Below are positions 10,518-20,358 of a stretch of 32,092 nt of DNA, piece by piece. Both the position numbers and the translations under genes were made by a program. The DNA is taken from the NCBI GenBank assembly GCA_020859945.1, contig JAJBVG010000022.1:1-32092 (forward strand). The letters are read 5' to 3'. Source of the DNA: Clostridiales bacterium (GTDB lineage Bacteria; Bacillota; Clostridia; Oscillospirales; Oscillospiraceae). Within the stretch, counting starts at the first letter, position 1, and the number at the start of each line of letters is the position of its first letter. Below the pieces are notes generated by a model that was not told the DNA's origin, did no database searches, and saw only the letters and a list, made by a program, of their open reading frames with translations.

Positions 10518-10545
10518 AAATTTGCGCGTCCCGAAAAATTCCCTC

Positions 10546-10573
10546 TTGCGTTTTCCCGGAAAGATGATATAAT
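10546..10573 (+). promoter_or_regulatory. Promoter of the aromatic amino acid operon
   Basis: TTGCGT (10546-10551), a 16-base spacer and a consensus TATAAT (10568-10573). Predicted transcription start is near 10580, giving a leader of about 270 bases before aroF. Confidence 0.75.
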
Positions 10574-10642
10574 AACCATACTGTCTCATTGATTTTTTTG
10601 ATGGGACGCAAGCTCCACCTGATGATTGAGGCGTATTGAACG

Positions 10643-10723
10643 ATGCTGTATTCTTCCACTTTCTCTTTTACCGGCAGCTGGAATCGATTTTTCGGTTTCG
10701 GCTATTACGCATGGGTAAAATGA
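10643..10723 (+). CDS. Aromatic-rich leader peptide (26 aa)
   Basis: ATG at 10643, TGA at 10721-10723. The 26-residue product has Phe at 7, 9, 16, 17 and 19, Tyr at 3, 21 and 22, and Trp at 13 and 24: ten aromatic residues, concentrated in residues 13-24. A random peptide would carry about two. It is too short for ordinary ORF calling. A weak SD (GAGG, 10628-10631) lies 11 bases upstream. The peptide has no sign of being a functional product. Its position just before competing hairpins and a terminator upstream of aroF makes it a sensor of charged Phe, Tyr and Trp tRNA, as in trpL or pheL of Proteobacteria. I do not recognise this particular peptide from any named family. Confidence 0.85.
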   Translation: MLYSSTFSFTGSWNRFFGFGYYAWVK

Positions 10724-10736
10724 GATAGCGGGACTG

Positions 10737-10797
10737 TGAGCGTCTAAAGCCGCCTTTGTCAGAAGGCAGGATTCTATACACTGTGATTTTAGGCTCA
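10737..10797 (+). promoter_or_regulatory. Antiterminator stem of the aro attenuator
   Basis: TGAGC-GT-CTAAA (10737-10748) pairs with TTTAG-GCTCA (10788-10797): ten base pairs interrupted by a two-base bulge, extendable by a G-U pair (10749 with 10787). Its 3' arm uses six bases (10792-10797) of the 5' arm of the terminator at 10792-10822, so the two structures exclude each other. Its 5' arm is also the partner of the leader peptide's Tyr-Tyr region. Confidence 0.7.
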
Positions 10798-10822
10798 TTG
10801 TCGCAAGGCAATGGGCCTTTTT
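10792..10822 (+). terminator. Attenuator terminator upstream of aroF
   Basis: A 9-bp stem, GGCTCATTG (10792-10800) with CAATGGGCC (10809-10817), with one G-U pair and an 8-base loop, followed by TTTTT (10818-10822). It ends 28 bases before the aroF ATG and after the operon promoter, so it acts on the leader transcript and not on an upstream gene. Confidence 0.85.
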
Positions 10823-10850
10823 GCGCGCTAAAATTGAAAGGAGTATTTTT

Positions 10851-11870
10851 ATGGTAGTCATTATGAAGCCCGGCACCAGTCAGAAGGAAATTCGCAAACT
10901 GGCGGCCCGGTTCGAGGCTCAAAATCTGCGGGTGGGCATCACCAACGGCGTGGACTGTTCCATTTTGGGGCTGGTAGGGGACACGACCCAGCTGGACGAG
11001 GACAAAATTCTGCTCAACGATCACGTGGAGCGGGTCATGCGGGTGTCGGAACCCTTCAAAAAGGCCAACCGGAAGTTCCACCCGGCGGATACGGTGGTCA
11101 ACGTCAACGGCGTGGAGATCGGCGGCGGCAAGTTTGCGGTCATGGCAGGGCCTTGCTCTGTGGAATCACGGGACCAAATTGTCACCATTGCCGACGAGGT
11201 CCAGCAGGCAGGGGCCGCTATCCTCCGGGGCGGAGCCTTCAAGCCCCGCACCAGCCCCTACTCCTTCCAGGGTATGGGAACCCCCGGCCTGAACCTGCTG
11301 CTGGAGGCCAAGGCAGAGACGGGTATGCCCATCGTCACCGAGATCATGAGCCCCAAGTACTGCGAATTGTTCGAGGAAAAGGTGGACTTGGTGCAGATCG
11401 GGGCGCGGAATATGCAGAACTTCGACCTGCTGAAGGAAGTGGGCAAGATGTCCAAGCCGGTGCTGCTGAAGCGGGGCCTCTCCAGTTCCTACGAGGAGTG
11501 GATCATGTCCGCCGAGTACATCATGAGCGAGGGCAACGAAAACGTCATCCTCTGCGAGCGGGGCATCCGCACCTTCGAGACCTACACCCGCAACACGCTG
11601 GATATCTCCGCCATCCCCGCCGTCAAGCGGATGAGCCACCTGCCCGTGGTGGTGGACCCCTCCCACTCCGGCGGCTACAGCTGGCTGGTGGAGCCGCTGA
11701 CCATGGCGGCGGTGGCGGCGGGGGCCGACGGCCTCATCATCGAGGTCCACAACGACCCCAAACACGCCCTCTGCGACGGCCAGCAGTCCCTGACCCCCAT
11801 GCAGTTCGGCCAGCTCATGGGTAAGGTGCAGAAAATTGTTGACCTGATGGGTAAAACAGTAGTAATATAA
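10851..11870 (+). CDS. aroF: 3-deoxy-7-phosphoheptulonate (DAHP) synthase, type I-beta with regulatory domain
   Basis: First enzyme of the shikimate pathway: condenses phosphoenolpyruvate with erythrose 4-phosphate. 339 residues. Residues about 1-70 (VVIMKPGTS..., ending near VSEPFKKANR) form the ferredoxin-like regulatory domain that in the Thermotoga-type enzyme binds Tyr/Phe for feedback inhibition. The TIM-barrel catalytic domain has GPCSVES, FKPRTSPYSFQGMG, QIGARNMQNFDLL, KPVLLKRG, ILCERGIRTFE and DPSHSGG, including the metal and substrate ligands. The start at 10851 has GAAAGGAG 8 bases upstream; a longer frame to 10821 begins inside the terminator. It is the first gene of the operon and is therefore directly controlled by the leader attenuator, giving two layers of end-product control. 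Confidence 0.97.
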   Translation: MVVIMKPGTSQKEIRKLAARFEAQNLRVGITNGVDCSILGLVGDTTQLDEDKILLNDHVERVMRVSEPFKKANRKFHPADTVVNVNGVEIGGGKFAVMAGPCSVESRDQIVTIADEVQQAGAAILRGGAFKPRTSPYSFQGMGTPGLNLLLEAKAETGMPIVTEIMSPKYCELFEEKVDLVQIGARNMQNFDLLKEVGKMSKPVLLKRGLSSSYEEWIMSAEYIMSEGNENVILCERGIRTFETYTRNTLDISAIPAVKRMSHLPVVVDPSHSGGYSWLVEPLTMAAVAAGADGLIIEVHNDPKHALCDGQQSLTPMQFGQLMGKVQKIVDLMGKTVVI

Positions 11871-11977: not shown

Positions 11978-13048
11978 ATGAACCGACTGAATGTGGCTCT
12001 GCCCGGCAGAGAATATGAGATTTTGATTGAACGGGGCCTGCTGGACGCGGTGGGCAAGCGGTGCCGGGTGGTGCTGATGCGGGCCACCCGCATTGCCCTG
12101 GTGACGGACAGCACAGTTGGCCCCCTGTACGCCCAGCGAGTGGTGAACAGTCTGGAGGCCGCCCGGTTCCAGGTGAAGGTGTTCACCATCCCGGCGGGGG
12201 AATCCTCCAAGAACCCGGAGATGCTGGCCTGGTTGTGGGAGGAGATGATGGCCTTCGGCCTGACCCGCACCGACGCGGTGGTGGCCTTGGGCGGCGGCGT
12301 TGTAGGCGACCTGGCGGGGTTTGCCGCCGCCACCATCCTCCGGGGCATTGATTACGTCCAGATCCCCACCACCCTGCTGGCCCAGGTGGACTCCTCCGTG
12401 GGCGGCAAGGTGGCAGTGGACCTCCAGGCCGGGAAGAACCTGGCCGGGGCCTTCTGGCAGCCCCGGATGGTGGTCATCGACCCCGACGTGCTGGAGACCC
12501 TGCCCGACCCGGTCTTTGCCGACGGCATGGCCGAGGTCATCAAGTACGGCTGCATCTGGGACGCGGAGTTTTTCGACATGCTGGACCAGTGCGGCAGCCG
12601 GGAGCGGGTCATGGCGGCCATCGAGCAGGTCATTCACATCTGCTGCGCCATCAAAGCCGAGGTGGTCCTCCAGGACGAGCACGACCGGGGCCTGCGGATG
12701 ATTCTGAACTTTGGCCACACCCTGGGCCACGCCTACGAGAAGGCGTATCACTACGAGACTTACACCCACGGCCAGGCCGTGGCCGCCGGGATGTGCCGGG
12801 CGGCGGAGATCGGCGTTCACATGGGCGTCACCCCGGCGGAGGTCCCCGGCAAAATTCAGTCCATCGTGAAAAAGTTCGGCCTGCCGGATGAGATCCCCTG
12901 CACCCAGGCCGACTATGAGGAGGCCGTGGGCCTGGACAAGAAGGGGCAGGGCGGTGACATCAACGTCATTCTGCTCCCCGAGCTGGGCAAGGCGGAGGCC
13001 GTCCGGCTGAAAAAATCGGAATTGATGGAACAAATTAAGCAACTGTAA
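11978..13048 (+). CDS. aroB: 3-dehydroquinate synthase
   Basis: Second shikimate-pathway step: NAD+- and Zn2+-dependent cyclisation of DAHP to 3-dehydroquinate. 356 residues, the usual length. Seen: the NAD-binding PAGESSKN and ALGGGVVGDLAGFAAATILRG, the substrate region IPTTLLAQVDSSVGGKVAVD, and the three zinc ligands in GMAEVIKYG (Glu), NFGHTLGHAYE (His) and YTHGQAVAAG (His). The start at 11978 has GGAAGGAG 6 bases upstream; the longer open frame to 11903 would translate the intergenic hairpin and is rejected. Second gene of the aro operon. Confidence 0.97.
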   Translation: MNRLNVALPGREYEILIERGLLDAVGKRCRVVLMRATRIALVTDSTVGPLYAQRVVNSLEAARFQVKVFTIPAGESSKNPEMLAWLWEEMMAFGLTRTDAVVALGGGVVGDLAGFAAATILRGIDYVQIPTTLLAQVDSSVGGKVAVDLQAGKNLAGAFWQPRMVVIDPDVLETLPDPVFADGMAEVIKYGCIWDAEFFDMLDQCGSRERVMAAIEQVIHICCAIKAEVVLQDEHDRGLRMILNFGHTLGHAYEKAYHYETYTHGQAVAAGMCRAAEIGVHMGVTPAEVPGKIQSIVKKFGLPDEIPCTQADYEEAVGLDKKGQGGDINVILLPELGKAEAVRLKKSELMEQIKQL

Positions 13049-13129: not shown

Positions 13130-14356
13130 ATGGATTTAGCGATTTATCCCCACAAACTACAGGGGACGGTGACGCCGCCCCCCTCCAAAAGCCAGGCCCA
13201 CCGTGCCATCATCTGCGCGGCGCTGGCCGAGGGGGAGAGCCTGATTTTGAACCTACAGCTCTCCCAGGACATCCACGCCACCCTGAACTGTATGCGCGCC
13301 CTGGGCGCGGAGGCCACGGAACACGGCGGCATCATCACCGGGGCCAACGCCCGCCGGGGCAAAATGCGGCCCCTGCCGGAGCTGGACTGCTGCGAGTCCG
13401 GCTCCACCCTGCGGTTCCTCATTCCCATCGCCCTGGTGGTGGCCGGGGGCGGCGTATTCAGTGGCCGGGGGCGGCTGATGGAGCGGCCCCAGAAGCCCTA
13501 CCGGGAGCTGTTTCAGGAGCGGGGCATCCGTTTCGAGCGGCGGAACGGCAAAATCGAGGTAGAGGGCCAGCTCCAGCCCGGCACCTTCCGCATCGCGGGC
13601 AACGTGTCCTCCCAGTTCATCACGGGGCTGCTCTTCGCGCTGCCTCTGCTGGAGGCCGATTCCGACATCGTCCTCACCACCGAGCTGGAATCCGCCGGGT
13701 ATATTGACTCCACCATCGTGGCCCAGCAGCTGTTCGGCGTCACAGTGGAGCGGACGGAGACCGGCTGGCACATCCCTGGAAACCAGCACTACCGGGCCGC
13801 CAAGGGACCGGTGATGATCGACGCGGATTACTCCAACGCGGCCTTTTATATCATCGCCAACGGTCTGGGCAACGACATCCAGGTCTGCGACATGAACCCC
13901 ATGACCTGTCAAGGGGACAAAATCATCGTGGAGCAGGAAGCGCTGCTGGACCAGCCCGGCGAGGTAGTCATTGACGTGCGGCAATGCCCCGATTTGGTCC
14001 CCGCCCTGGCGGGGCGGGCCGCCCTCCGGGAGGGACAGGTGACGAAAATCGTCAACGCCGCCCGGCTGCGCATCAAGGAGAGCGACCGGCTGGACACCGT
14101 CACCACCGAACTGAACAAGCTGGGGGCCAAAGTGGAGCAGACCCCCGATTCCCTCATCATCACTGGGGTGAAACAGCTCCACGGCGGCGTGGTGAACAGC
14201 CACAACGACCACCGCATCGCCATGATGCTGGCGATGGTGGCCAGCGCCGCCACTGACCGGGTGGTTTTGCAGGACGCGGGCAGCGTCGCCAAGTCCCACC
14301 CCGGTTTTTGGGAACACTACTACCGGCTGGGCGGACAGTTCAGTATCTGGGATTAA
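13130..14356 (+). CDS. aroA: 3-phosphoshikimate 1-carboxyvinyltransferase (EPSP synthase)
   Basis: Adds the enolpyruvyl group of PEP to shikimate 3-phosphate. 408 residues, slightly short for the family (about 427). Seen: PPPSKSQAHRAI near the N-terminus (substrate Lys/Ser), ESGSTLRFLIPIA in place of the class I GNAGTA-type loop (the Gly corresponding to the glyphosate-critical residue is kept), GNVSSQFITGLLFALPLL, DADYSNAAFYI, RIKESDRL and SHNDHRIAMM. The start at 13130 has GGAAAGGA 11 bases upstream. An alternative in-frame ATG at 13073 would add 19 residues with no similarity to the family. In the aroB-aroA gap, a CCGCAC/GTGCGG stem (13090-13107) presents AAAGGA in its loop. Third gene of the aro operon, 12 bases before aroC. 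Confidence 0.95.
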   Translation: MDLAIYPHKLQGTVTPPPSKSQAHRAIICAALAEGESLILNLQLSQDIHATLNCMRALGAEATEHGGIITGANARRGKMRPLPELDCCESGSTLRFLIPIALVVAGGGVFSGRGRLMERPQKPYRELFQERGIRFERRNGKIEVEGQLQPGTFRIAGNVSSQFITGLLFALPLLEADSDIVLTTELESAGYIDSTIVAQQLFGVTVERTETGWHIPGNQHYRAAKGPVMIDADYSNAAFYIIANGLGNDIQVCDMNPMTCQGDKIIVEQEALLDQPGEVVIDVRQCPDLVPALAGRAALREGQVTKIVNAARLRIKESDRLDTVTTELNKLGAKVEQTPDSLIITGVKQLHGGVVNSHNDHRIAMMLAMVASAATDRVVLQDAGSVAKSHPGFWEHYYRLGGQFSIWD

Positions 14357-14368
14357 GGAGAGAGCGAT

Positions 14369-15430
14369 ATGAAACACACGATTTTTGGCGAGTCCCACGG
14401 CCTCGCCGTGGGCGTGTCCCTGACCGGCGTGCCGTCTGGCATCGAGCTGGACATGGACGAAATTGCCTTTGAGATGAGCCGCCGCGCACCCGGCAAAAGC
14501 CCCCTCTCCTCCGCCCGGAAGGAGGCGGACGTGCCGGAGATTCTCTCCGGCGTGTTCGAGGGCATGACCACCGGCACCCCCCTCTGCGCCATCATCCGCA
14601 ACACCGACACCCGCAGCAAGGACTACGCCAAGACCAAGGACCTAGCCCGGCCCGGCCACGCCGATTACTCCGGCTTTATGCGCTACCAGGGCTACAATGA
14701 CTACCGGGGCGGCGGACACTTCTCCGCCCGGCTGACGGCTCCGCTGGTGTTCGCCGGGGCAGTCGCCAAGCAGATTTTGGCCCAGGAGGGCGTCAAGGTG
14801 GGCGCCCACATCCAGCAGGTGGCGGGCATCAAGGACGCGGCCTTCGACAGTGAGGCGTATCCCCTCTCCGGCAACCTGTTTTACACCGTGGCCCACAAGG
14901 ACTTTCCCGTTCTGGTGGACGAGCAGGGGCAGAAAATGCAGGAGGCCATCCTCGCCGCCAAGAACGACTGCGACTCAGTGGGCGGTGTCATTGAGTGCGC
15001 CGTGCTGGGCCTGCCCGCCGGACTGGGTTCACCGGATTACGGCGAAAACGTGGAGGGCATCTTCGCCCAGCAGCTGTTCGCGGTCCCGGCGGTGAAGGGC
15101 GTGGCCTTTGGCGTGGGTTACGGCTGCGCCGGGCTGCGGGGCAGTCAGATGAACGACCCTCTCTATATGCGGGGCGGCGACGTGCGCACCCGCACCAACT
15201 ACAACGGCGGCGTCAACGGCGGCATCACCAACGGAATGCCCGTCACCTTTACAGTGGCCGTCCGGCCCACCCCGTCCATCGCCAAAGAGCAGGACACCGT
15301 GAACCTGGACACCATGCAGAACGCCAAGCTCCGTATCGAGGGGCGGCACGACCCCTGCGTGGTCCACCGGGCGGTGCCGGTCATCGAGGCGGCGGCGGCG
15401 CTGGCCACCTGCGAGCTGTTGGGCATCTGA
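14369..15430 (+). CDS. aroC: Chorismate synthase
   Basis: Last step of the common aromatic pathway: FMN-dependent anti-1,4-elimination of phosphate from EPSP to give chorismate. 353 residues. Seen: FGESHG at the N-terminus, MSRRAPGKS, RPGHADYSG, YRGGGHFSARLTA (FMN/substrate loop), GVGYGCAGLRGSQMND, TNYNGGVNGGITNGMPV and RHDPCVVHRAVPV near the end, the signatures of the family with their His and Arg residues intact. SD AAGGAGAG lies just upstream of 14369. Fourth gene of the operon. Confidence 0.97.
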   Translation: MKHTIFGESHGLAVGVSLTGVPSGIELDMDEIAFEMSRRAPGKSPLSSARKEADVPEILSGVFEGMTTGTPLCAIIRNTDTRSKDYAKTKDLARPGHADYSGFMRYQGYNDYRGGGHFSARLTAPLVFAGAVAKQILAQEGVKVGAHIQQVAGIKDAAFDSEAYPLSGNLFYTVAHKDFPVLVDEQGQKMQEAILAAKNDCDSVGGVIECAVLGLPAGLGSPDYGENVEGIFAQQLFAVPAVKGVAFGVGYGCAGLRGSQMNDPLYMRGGDVRTRTNYNGGVNGGITNGMPVTFTVAVRPTPSIAKEQDTVNLDTMQNAKLRIEGRHDPCVVHRAVPVIEAAAALATCELLGI

Positions 15431-15462: not shown

Positions 15463-16626
15463 ATGACTGAATTAGACGAACTGCGGGGCAAAATCGACGA
15501 AATCGACCGTCAAATCGTGGCCCTTTACGAGGAGCGGATGGACTGCTGCCGCCAGGTGGGGCTGTACAAGCTGCGCACCCAAATGCCCATCCTGGACTCC
15601 GGGCGGGAGACCGAGGTGCTGCGGAGCAAGACTGACCTGGTCAGCGACCCGGAGATGAAACCCTACGTCATCGCCCTGTTTGAGCAGATCATGGCCCAGA
15701 GCCGCATGATCCAGACCAAGCTCATCAACGCCTGGAGCCCCGCCAAAGAGCGGGCTTACAGCGAGTACCAGGAGGCCATGAACAGCGGCAACTGGTTCCC
15801 GGAGTCGGACCGCATCATCTACCAGGGCCAGCCGGGAGCCTACGGCGAGGAGGCCACCATCCAGCTTTTTGGCGAGGACTGCGACCGCACCCCGGCCCGG
15901 AGCTTCGAGGGCGTGTTTGTAGCCATCCGGGAGGGGCTGGGCGGCTACGGCGTGTTGCCCATCGAGAACAGCTCCACCGGCTCCATCAATGACGTGTATG
16001 ACCTGCTGGGCAAATATGGCTGCTCCATCGTAGGGGAGACCATCGTGCGGGTGGAACACTGCCTGATGGGGGTCCCCGGCTCCAGCCTGGGCAGCATCAC
16101 CGACGTGTACTCCCACGAGCAGGGCTTCTCCCAGTGCCGGGAGTTTTTGAATACCTTCCCCCAGTGGAACCAGAACGTGGAGGCCAACACAGCCGCCTCC
16201 GCCAAAATGGTGGCTAAGCTGAACGACCCCTCCAGGGCCGCCATCGCCAGCCGCCGGGCGGCCAAGCTCTACGGGCTGGACATCCTGGCGGAGAAGATCA
16301 ACTACAACTCCAACAACTACACCCGCTTTGTGGTGGTGGCGGAAAAGCCCCGCATCAGCAAGAAGGCGGACAAAATCAGCGTCATTTTCACCGTCCCCCA
16401 CACCGAGGGCAGCCTGCACCGGATTTTGTCGGTGTTCGCCGCCAACGGCCTGAACCTGTTGAAACTGGAGTCCCGCCCCATTCCGGGCAGAAGCTGGGAG
16501 TACAACTTCTTCGCGGACTTTGCCGGGAACCTCCACAATGAGGGGATGGACGCGGTGATTCACCAGCTCATCGACGAGACGCTGAGCTTCCATATCTTGG
16601 GCAACTACGAAAAGAGTTCGGATTAA
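15463..16626 (+). CDS. pheA: Bifunctional chorismate mutase/prephenate dehydratase with ACT domain (P-protein)
   Basis: Commits chorismate to phenylalanine: chorismate to prephenate to phenylpyruvate. 387 residues in three parts: AroQ-type chorismate mutase (about 1-90, LRGKIDEIDRQIVALYEERM), prephenate dehydratase (about 117-292, with YQGQPGAYGEEA, LPIENSSTGSI and the catalytic TRF at 287-289), and an ACT domain (about 304-380) with ESRP at 336-339, the Phe-binding motif of this family. It should be feedback-inhibited by Phe. As the last gene of a unit headed by a leader peptide rich in Phe codons, it links the attenuator to the Phe branch. No tyrA or trp genes are in the window. Confidence 0.96.
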   Translation: MTELDELRGKIDEIDRQIVALYEERMDCCRQVGLYKLRTQMPILDSGRETEVLRSKTDLVSDPEMKPYVIALFEQIMAQSRMIQTKLINAWSPAKERAYSEYQEAMNSGNWFPESDRIIYQGQPGAYGEEATIQLFGEDCDRTPARSFEGVFVAIREGLGGYGVLPIENSSTGSINDVYDLLGKYGCSIVGETIVRVEHCLMGVPGSSLGSITDVYSHEQGFSQCREFLNTFPQWNQNVEANTAASAKMVAKLNDPSRAAIASRRAAKLYGLDILAEKINYNSNNYTRFVVVAEKPRISKKADKISVIFTVPHTEGSLHRILSVFAANGLNLLKLESRPIPGRSWEYNFFADFAGNLHNEGMDAVIHQLIDETLSFHILGNYEKSSD

Positions 16627-19233: not shown

Positions 19234-20358
19234 ATGGCATCCATCAAGTTTGATGAATATCGCGTCAAGCTCCACAATCTGGCCCCGGTGCTGGAGGACC
19301 TGGGCAAGTCCCTGGGGCTGGAGGCCGCCGAGCAGGAGCTGGACCTGCTCCAGGCCCAGAGCGCGGCGGAGGATTTCTGGACCAACATGGAAAAGGCTCA
19401 GAAGGTCTCTCAGCGCATCAAGAACCTCCAGGACAAGATCGAGGCCCAGAACAAGCGCCTCTCCACGGTGGAGGATTTGTTAGTCCTGTGCGAAATGGGC
19501 ATGGAGGAGGACGACGACGAGCTGCTGGACGAACTGGAGTCCACCTATGCTGCTCTGGAGGCGGACATTGAATCTGCCCGGCTGTCCACCCTGTTCCGGG
19601 GGGAGTATGACCACAACGACTGTATGCTCTCCATCCACGCGGGGGCGGGCGGCACCGAGGCCCAGGACTGGGCCGCCATGCTGTTCCGCATGTACCAGCG
19701 CTGGGCGGACCGCCGTGGCTTCAAGTGCGAGACGCTGGACTACGAGGACGGCGATGAGGCGGGCATCAAGACTGCCACGCTGATGATTTCCGGCGAGAAC
19801 GCCTACGGCTACCTCCGCAGCGAACACGGCGTCCACCGGCTGGTGCGCATCTCCCCCTTCGACTCCAACGCCCGGCGGCAGACTTCCTTCGCCGCGGTGG
19901 AGGTCATGCCCGACCTGCCCGACGACGTAGAGGTGGACATCCGGCCGGAGGACGTGGAAATGCAGGTGTTCCGCAGCTCCGGCGCGGGCGGCCAGCACAT
20001 CAACAAGACCTCCTCCGCCGTCCGGCTCATCCACAAGCCCACCGGCATTGTGGTGTCCAGCCAGCAGGAGCGCTCCCAGTTCCAGAACAAGGACACCTGT
20101 TACCGGATGCTCCGGGATAAGCTGGTGCAACTGCAAATGCAGGCCCACGCGGAGAAAATTTCCGACCTGAAGGGCGTGCAGATGAAGATTGAATGGGGAA
20201 GCCAAATTCGCTCCTACGTCTTTATGCCCTACCAGATGGTCAAGGATATGCGCACCGCCTACGAGACCAGCAACATCAACGCCGTCATGGACGGCGACCT
20301 GGACGGGTTCATCAACGCCTACCTGACCGCCGAGGCCACCGGCAATTGGGCGAAGTAA
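19234..20358 (+). CDS. prfB: Peptide chain release factor 2 (no programmed frameshift)
   Basis: RF2 recognises UGA and UAA and triggers peptide release in the ribosome. 374 residues in one uninterrupted frame. Seen: N-terminal coiled-coil domain with LQDKIEAQNKRLSTVEDL, HAGAGGTEAQDWA, the codon-recognition tripeptide SPF (207-209), which marks RF2 rather than RF1, and the catalytic GGQ (252-254) in SSGAGGQHINKTSSAVRL. At the place where many prfB genes carry an in-frame UGA with a +1 shift site (about codon 25) this gene reads straight through LGKSLGLEAAE, so UGA-dependent autoregulation is absent. SD-like AGGTGAGGG lies just upstream of 19234. Followed by a terminator. Confidence 0.97.
   Translation: MASIKFDEYRVKLHNLAPVLEDLGKSLGLEAAEQELDLLQAQSAAEDFWTNMEKAQKVSQRIKNLQDKIEAQNKRLSTVEDLLVLCEMGMEEDDDELLDELESTYAALEADIESARLSTLFRGEYDHNDCMLSIHAGAGGTEAQDWAAMLFRMYQRWADRRGFKCETLDYEDGDEAGIKTATLMISGENAYGYLRSEHGVHRLVRISPFDSNARRQTSFAAVEVMPDLPDDVEVDIRPEDVEMQVFRSSGAGGQHINKTSSAVRLIHKPTGIVVSSQQERSQFQNKDTCYRMLRDKLVQLQMQAHAEKISDLKGVQMKIEWGSQIRSYVFMPYQMVKDMRTAYETSNINAVMDGDLDGFINAYLTAEATGNWAK

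Follow-up and report, generated by a model that had tools for sequence, protein, structure and literature searches.

A probable leader-peptide attenuator ahead of the aromatic amino-acid operon in Oscillospiraceae and their relatives

How is expression of the common aromatic pathway adjusted in Oscillospiraceae? The question is raised by a 32,092-nucleotide stretch of DNA from a Clostridiales bacterium of this family (contig JAJBVG010000022.1 of assembly GCA_020859945.1; hereafter the window), in which a short, unannotated ORF precedes the genes of that pathway. A first-pass annotation of the sequence had read this ORF as a leader peptide heading an aroF-aroB-aroA-aroC-pheA operon, and the gene models agree with this order, the best scores of the pheA-like gene lying below their cut-offs:

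10851..11870, plus strand: aroF, DAHP synthase (NCBIfam PRK08673 and TIGR01361 above cut-off)
11978..13048, plus strand: aroB, 3-dehydroquinate synthase (TIGR01357 above cut-off)
13130..14356, plus strand: aroA, EPSP synthase (TIGR01356 just above cut-off, with a query started two codons 5' of the ATG at 13130)
14369..15430, plus strand: aroC, chorismate synthase (TIGR00033 above cut-off)
15463..16626, plus strand: pheA-like chorismate mutase/prephenate dehydratase (best matches to bifunctional chorismate mutase/prephenate dehydratase and prephenate dehydratase models, below curated cut-offs)

Further along the window, at 19234-20358, an ORF that we take to encode a release factor 2-like protein is open from an ATG with no in-frame stop; release factor 2 genes usually carry an in-frame stop for programmed frameshift.

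On comparative evidence, we consider it highly probable that positions 10643-10723 are the leader of a classical ribosome-mediated transcription attenuator. The elements around it are as follows:

10546..10573, plus strand: promoter (-35 TTGCGT, 16-nt spacer, -10 TATAAT), from pattern search
10628..10631, plus strand: candidate Shine-Dalgarno sequence for the leader ORF, GAGG, 11 nt 5' of its ATG
10643..10723, plus strand: leader peptide ORF of 26 codons, MLYSSTFSFTGSWNRFFGFGYYAWVK and a stop codon; frame and coordinates are exact, and the assignment draws on aromatic content in relatives
10792..10817, plus strand: intrinsic terminator hairpin (regions 3 and 4), -17.2 kcal/mol by folding
10818..10822, plus strand: terminator U-run of five U, from the sequence

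The 26 codons include five for Phe, three for Tyr and two for Trp, as the first-pass annotation had counted; its statement that they cluster in codons 13-24 holds for seven of the ten (W13, F16, F17, F19, Y21, Y22 and W24), the remaining three being Y3, F7 and F9. Its placement of the ORF between a promoter and a terminator was likewise borne out, and the terminator sits between leader and aroF, as expected of a transcription attenuator. A stock promoter and terminator scan of the window detected neither element, and direct patterns found both. Three of the six positions of the -35 box agree with the consensus; at 26 of 30 window-type loci a TTG hexamer is likewise followed, 16-18 nt downstream, by a TATAAT-like box, upstream sequence being cut in two of the four that miss the pattern. 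The CTCATTG stretch of the terminator is kept in all 32 aligned window-type loci. The spacing from the candidate Shine-Dalgarno sequence to the leader ATG is long, and a GAGG-like stretch 5' of the leader ORF is also visible in the alignment of relatives; together with the substitution pattern described below, it hints that the ORF is translated.

A U-rich leader RNA could yield aromatic codons by chance and without function, and the window locus by itself is modest evidence against this, because 25 of 3000 dinucleotide shuffles of its 300 upstream bases are equally dense, reaching its 7 aromatics in 12 codons. The relatives carry the argument. AroF was present in 110 of 148 related genomes, and 90 aroF loci of the genus, family and order were taken as a subset of the matches; 89 had enough upstream sequence for the shuffle test, L029 having 7 nt. 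With related loci counted as separate rows here as in the other comparative tests, aroF is preceded at 71 of the 89 loci by an ORF that reaches 5 or more aromatics in 12 codons, versus 13.7% of shuffles, at 56 loci by one that reaches 6 or more, versus 3.3%, and at 33 loci by one that reaches 7 or more, versus 0.46%. On the reverse strand of the same loci, the corresponding counts are 8, 4 and 0. Compared with their own shuffles, 58 of the 89 loci beat 95% and 31 fail. As a control, only 3 of 22 trpE upstream regions (19 from the same genus; L329, L332 and L334, whose upstream sequence is cut, being left out) reach 5 aromatics. Conservation among close relatives was thus largely, though not uniformly, upheld: 23 of 24 aroF loci of the window's genus with enough upstream sequence reach at least 5, but L030, of the same genus, has an aroF without an aromatic-rich ORF (best 3 in 12), its nearest kin having one.

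The pattern of substitution points the same way. A widened motif matched 86 of 102 loci, giving 68 distinct sequences and 50 pairs, a narrower pattern having caught 32 loci. Between nearest-neighbour leaders, 39 of 96 differences that touch an aromatic codon retain an aromatic residue (p=6e-4), where about 25% would be expected by our own estimate from single-base changes. Trp occupies its central site in 55 of the 68 distinct leader sequences, and 11 of the other 13 have Tyr or Phe there instead. Given this replacement, the recurrence at 71 of 89 loci, a similar recurrence in the class-level sample described below and the sparse trpE control, we regard the chance explanation as having next to no probability.

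Another reading would make the ORF the gene of a small protein, rich in aromatics, that has its own function and is co-transcribed by coincidence. There is a precedent of a kind in the Sinorhizobium leader peptide peTrpL, described as acting in trans (PMC7298713), and the W-x-R-F stretch of the peptides studied here is well conserved. However, their length, their ends and many residues drift among relatives while the aromatic content persists, which is a pattern that the first-pass annotation had proposed to look for in the aroF upstream regions of related genomes. The window ORF has no NCBIfam match, and its assignment to a named small protein was therefore rejected. Peptide stretches that recur in other genera fall where the RNA pairs: in our own reading, recurring ends such as FGLA, seen in several genera, are the coding face of the region 2 RNA strand discussed below, and the recurring stretch SFTxFFGKA of L054, L055 and L084 is accounted for by a hairpin within the aromatic codons. 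A protein with its own function is thus extremely unlikely as an explanation. The hairpin in those three loci (with variants in L071, L081 and L082) is of the type AGCTTTACC...GGTAAGGCT.

If the ORF is a leader, does it act as an attenuator, or could it be incidental to a tRNA- or ligand-sensing RNA such as a T-box or riboswitch? T-boxes sense uncharged tRNA directly; like the proposed leader they respond to amino-acid supply before a terminator, but they need no leader ORF. The first-pass annotation had set the leader against the T-box or TRAP control familiar in Firmicutes. That contrast is borne out in part, T-boxes standing before trpE of the window's genome and before aroF of some relatives. 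Five relatives carry T-boxes before aroF (L049, L057, L075, L083 and L163) in a scan of 39 aroF loci, mostly without a convincing leader; four of them (L049, L075, L083 and L163) have aromatic scores of 2-4, and L057 scores 6 from an ORF overlying its T-box and is included among the 71 of 89. The trpE gene of the window's genome also has an upstream T-box (L322, 1095-1330; 84 bits, E 8e-19, under the gathering score of 93). In the window, by contrast, no Rfam family matches at the curated gathering score, so that known amino-acid operon leaders were rejected, and relaxed settings returned only two snoRNA matches (E 0.58 and 3.5). A motif search of the region upstream of aroF found no T-box either, and a T-box (RF00230) was rejected there on both covariance model and motif. 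Moreover, under T-box or riboswitch control the aromatic codons need neither persist nor track operon content. We therefore consider such control very unlikely for the window operon. The family of L049, with its T-box, also holds the leader-bearing locus L067; leader and T-box thus look like alternatives locus by locus, in an apparent swap of sensing systems. With a T-box before trpE and the probable leader before aroF, aromatic control in a single cell would be divided between two sensing systems.

An attenuator of the classical kind should also have an antiterminator that uses the 5' arm of the terminator. Two strands in the window are predicted to fill this role:

10730..10749, plus strand: antiterminator 5' strand (region 2), from nascent-RNA folding and from matched versus mismatched arms in relatives
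10787..10804, plus strand: antiterminator 3' strand (region 3), overlapping the terminator 5' arm and loop, from nascent-RNA folding

Region 2 begins six nt past the leader stop codon, and in nascent-RNA folding its helix with region 3 (-23.9 kcal/mol) excludes the terminator. If region 2 evolved to pair with the arm of its own terminator, it should pair better there than with the arms of other loci, and this matched-versus-mismatched comparison was made with region 2 defined as a segment counted from the last aromatic codon. Among 30 window-type loci, pairing reached -16.6 kcal/mol with the own arm versus -14.5 with foreign arms (0 of 500 permutations), and among 31 other family and order loci -16.2 versus -12.4 kcal/mol (0 of 500); 28 loci of this non-window type, one per genus, gave -15.8 versus -12.2 (0 of 1000). 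The tests with 500 permutations, and the cruder one described next but one, took loci with a terminator of -11 kcal/mol or below. The difference recurred in 41 class-level loci that were independent of discovery, four of them from the window's order, at -13.5 versus -9.8 (0 of 1000), under essentially the same definition, with at least 5 aromatics and any terminator downstream. An earlier, cruder test with loose segments and shuffles had yielded 19 of 71 loci at the 5% level, the window standing at 9 of 200. In six Tyr-type second-copy loci tested alone, the pairing signal between regions 2 and 3 was absent (190 of 500 permutations). The proposal of leader-peptide attenuation of the aro operon is thus strongly supported by comparison, through aromatic content kept amid drift, the terminator and an antiterminator matched to its arm.

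From these features we infer leader translation, stalling, read-through and termination in amino-acid plenty. Transcription would begin just past 10573, and a ribosome would translate the 26-codon leader while RNA polymerase advances. A shortage of Phe-, Trp- or Tyr-tRNA would stall the ribosome in the aromatic stretch and leave region 2 free; region 2 would then pair with region 3 once this is made, the terminator would be blocked, and aroF-aroB-aroA-aroC-pheA would be transcribed. With charged aromatic tRNAs, the ribosome would reach the stop codon and interfere with the first part of region 2, and formation of the terminator would follow. With no ribosome loaded, upstream RNA would take up region 2, and the terminator would again form.

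Folding by itself does not account for termination in amino-acid plenty. Region 2 starts 10-19 nt past the last aromatic codon at 29 of 69 loci, a distance that would put it barely clear of a stalled ribosome. Without a ribosome, 0.6 pairs of the 2:3 helix remain in RNA folded from 10586 and 0.9 in RNA from 10600, and 12.4 remain in RNA from 10643; region 2 being occupied by upstream RNA, an unloaded leader should terminate, and one with a ribosome in its aromatic codons should be read through. Folding of the window demonstrated no consistent hairpin of regions 1 and 2. In nascent RNA, the 2:3 helix forms at every ribosome position within the ORF, codon 1 included, and with a ribosome on the leader stop codon 9.2 of about 10.6 pairs persist. 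Equilibrium folding with a ribosome mask gave the terminator at every ribosome position and did not separate the states. Because the helix forms at all positions, folding alone fails to distinguish starvation from repletion in the lineage of the window, and since neither nascent nor equilibrium folding suffices, kinetics must decide between the two outcomes. Of the steps of the model, termination when amino acids abound is the one least secured. In seven relatives (L007, L008 and L011-L015), the leader ORF continues through region 2, which a translating ribosome would then mask fully.

That a ribosome on the window stop codon leaves region 2 mostly uncovered also speaks for a variant in which the leader attenuates, but the ribosome governs translation of aroF or access of Rho and the intrinsic terminator plays no part. 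Leader peptides without terminators, perhaps linked to Rho, have been proposed for cys genes of Actinobacteria (PMC1262725). Against this variant, many loci have a terminator-like hairpin and U-run in the interval from leader to aroF, region 2 matches the terminator arm, and a GGAG belonging to aroF itself (10840-10843) lies beyond the terminator hairpin. We consider it unlikely, and retain termination at the hairpin as the preferred reading.

Which amino acids would such a leader sense? Leader composition follows operon content across the sequenced loci. A table of 169 rows, minus four that were cut (L043 and L169 downstream; L029 and L143 with no real upstream sequence), 15 duplicates and 26 loci scoring under 5, was sorted by operon type, with 5 loci unclassified; a gene was counted as tyrA if its product resembled that of an L232 ORF, which we took to be TyrA from its motifs. 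Loci with aroF followed by tyrA only (9 loci, eight from the window's family and one, L193, from another) have Tyr-rich leaders, with Phe/Tyr/Trp totals of 14/48/1 and a mean Tyr share of 0.77. Those with aroF-tyrA-aroB or aroA (40 loci) have Phe/Tyr leaders (201/151/9; Tyr share 0.41), with Trp in 6, and those with aroF-aroB and no tyrA (70 loci) have Phe-rich leaders (339/116/59; Tyr share 0.22), usually with one Trp, which is present in 59. In the window, as in L241, L246 and L247, this last type runs on to pheA. Rank tests of composition against operon type gave p values of 2e-6 to 1e-9, on related rows. PF02153 matches lie directly 3' of aroF in eight genomes (G090, G094-G097, G099, G100 and G104).

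Gene copy number shows a parallel trend. Leaders of the window's type carry a mean of 2.23 Tyr codons in genomes with one aroF (n=22) versus 0.90 in those with a second, aroF-tyrA operon (n=10; p=4e-4). This comparison leaves out L036 (second AroF fragment in the genome) and three loci with second matches, L008 (short fragment), L010 (genome with 10% contamination) and L090 (split gene); with these restored, the means are 2.27 (n=26) versus 0.90 and the conclusion is unchanged. In seven loci of the family (L038, L040, L041, L044, L045, L050 and L052), a Tyr-rich leader of the GYGYxYYRYY type precedes the second-copy aroF-tyrA operon, and in three of them, L041, L045 and L052, sequence past the stop codon pairs with the Tyr codons in a long hairpin. 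L247 has a second aroF (10543-11556), followed by tyrA, before which no aromatic-rich leader is seen, the best ORF reaching 2 in 12; the stretch scanned there matched no Rfam family.

The first-pass annotation had further supposed that one peptide senses all three aromatic amino acids. The codon content of the window agrees with this, and the window leader plausibly covers all three, because its genome has a single aroF, a T-box stands before trpE, and no Tyr-type leader precedes tyrA in the genus where upstream sequence is readable (in genomes other than the window's own). Among close relatives, however, the supposition holds only in part: in L004 and L006, whose AroF is about 97-98% identical to that of the window, the Tyr codons fall to 0 and 1, and both Trp codons are kept. 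Phe and Trp therefore look like the stable signals, and they are most likely the strongest-acting amino acids, Tyr being added in some lineages.

The leader is not peculiar to the window operon; by the same sequence comparisons, it occurs in much of the family, the order and the class-level sample. In that sample, which we take to represent the class Clostridia, AroF was found in 217 of 292 genomes, and 60 upstream regions were chosen from the listed matches and spread over families. A leader with at least 5 aromatics in 12 codons precedes aroF at 49 of the 60 loci, 41 of which have a terminator of -9 kcal/mol or below downstream of it. The predicted peptides of C. tyrobutyricum (L166; FYFEFSFSWGYYYFSAGYLFCKK) and Flavonifractor plautii (L140; FLFSYGWARFMGAGFFGMEK) are examples. 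Leaderless loci also exist: 26 of 150 distinct loci in the operon table score under 5, and nine Oscillospiraceae or Clostridia loci score just 0-3 (L100, L106, L114, L122, L123, L125, L133, L134 and L152). In a phylum-level sample of 29 further loci, 6 aromatics in 12 codons are reached by 9 of the 12 best AroF matches (L339-L350, of which L339 belongs to the window's family) and by 1 of the remaining 17.

Attenuation by leader peptides is an established kind of control. The enteric trp and pheA attenuators likewise consist of a short ORF rich in codons for the end product, a terminator before the first gene and an alternative antiterminator using the terminator 5' arm, but the window leader fronts the first gene of the common pathway and mixes three amino acids. 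In enteric ilvGMEDA, too, one leader carries codons for a set of three amino acids related to each other, although there the amino acids are branched-chain and the bacteria are others. Nearest in function to the window leader are those of Corynebacterium glutamicum and Acholeplasma. In the former, a putative leader peptide with Phe-Tyr-Phe is described upstream of the DAHP synthase gene aroF (PMC4046766), the same kind of target but in another phylum and with a short aromatic run. In the latter, the uORFC-13-1 motif is described from 24 sequences of Acholeplasma and unknown organisms; it lies upstream of aroF and combines a terminator stem with a candidate uORF in which one or more codons specify Phe (PMC8632094); that description gives no mix of Tyr and Trp, and it is by the description that we set the motif apart. 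His leader peptides are reported to act by classical attenuation in some Firmicutes, replacing a T-box (PMC2965389, PMC9413887); the mechanism is the same, but it concerns histidine genes in few lineages rather than aromatic genes in many families. Among the matches listed in a search of the open-access literature by title and start of abstract, none concerned aromatic leader peptides in Clostridia, which does not establish their absence from print. We judge the attenuator family to be real, ordinary in mechanism but widespread, and apparently uncatalogued; what surprises is how far it reaches, that it mixes amino acids and the way its composition tracks operon content.

On balance, we lean towards a broader picture, in which much of Clostridia would gate aromatic synthesis by leader attenuation and codon changes would tune the sensor: when aroF is duplicated, the leader of a copy that joins tyrA would turn Tyr-rich, and that of the other copy would lose Tyr codons and keep Phe and Trp. 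Because leader attenuation needs a ribosome close behind the polymerase, this would imply coupling of transcription and translation at these Clostridia leaders, unlike in Bacillus subtilis, for which runaway, uncoupled transcription has been described as possibly widespread (PMC7858274). Should this picture be true, a mechanism best known from Proteobacteria would regulate the first aromatic step in a large bacterial group with members from the gut and from industry, and coupling in these bacteria would become testable with one reporter. The leader codons would then form a readable code of the amino acids sensed, which would, from sequence alone, predict regulation in uncultured bacteria.
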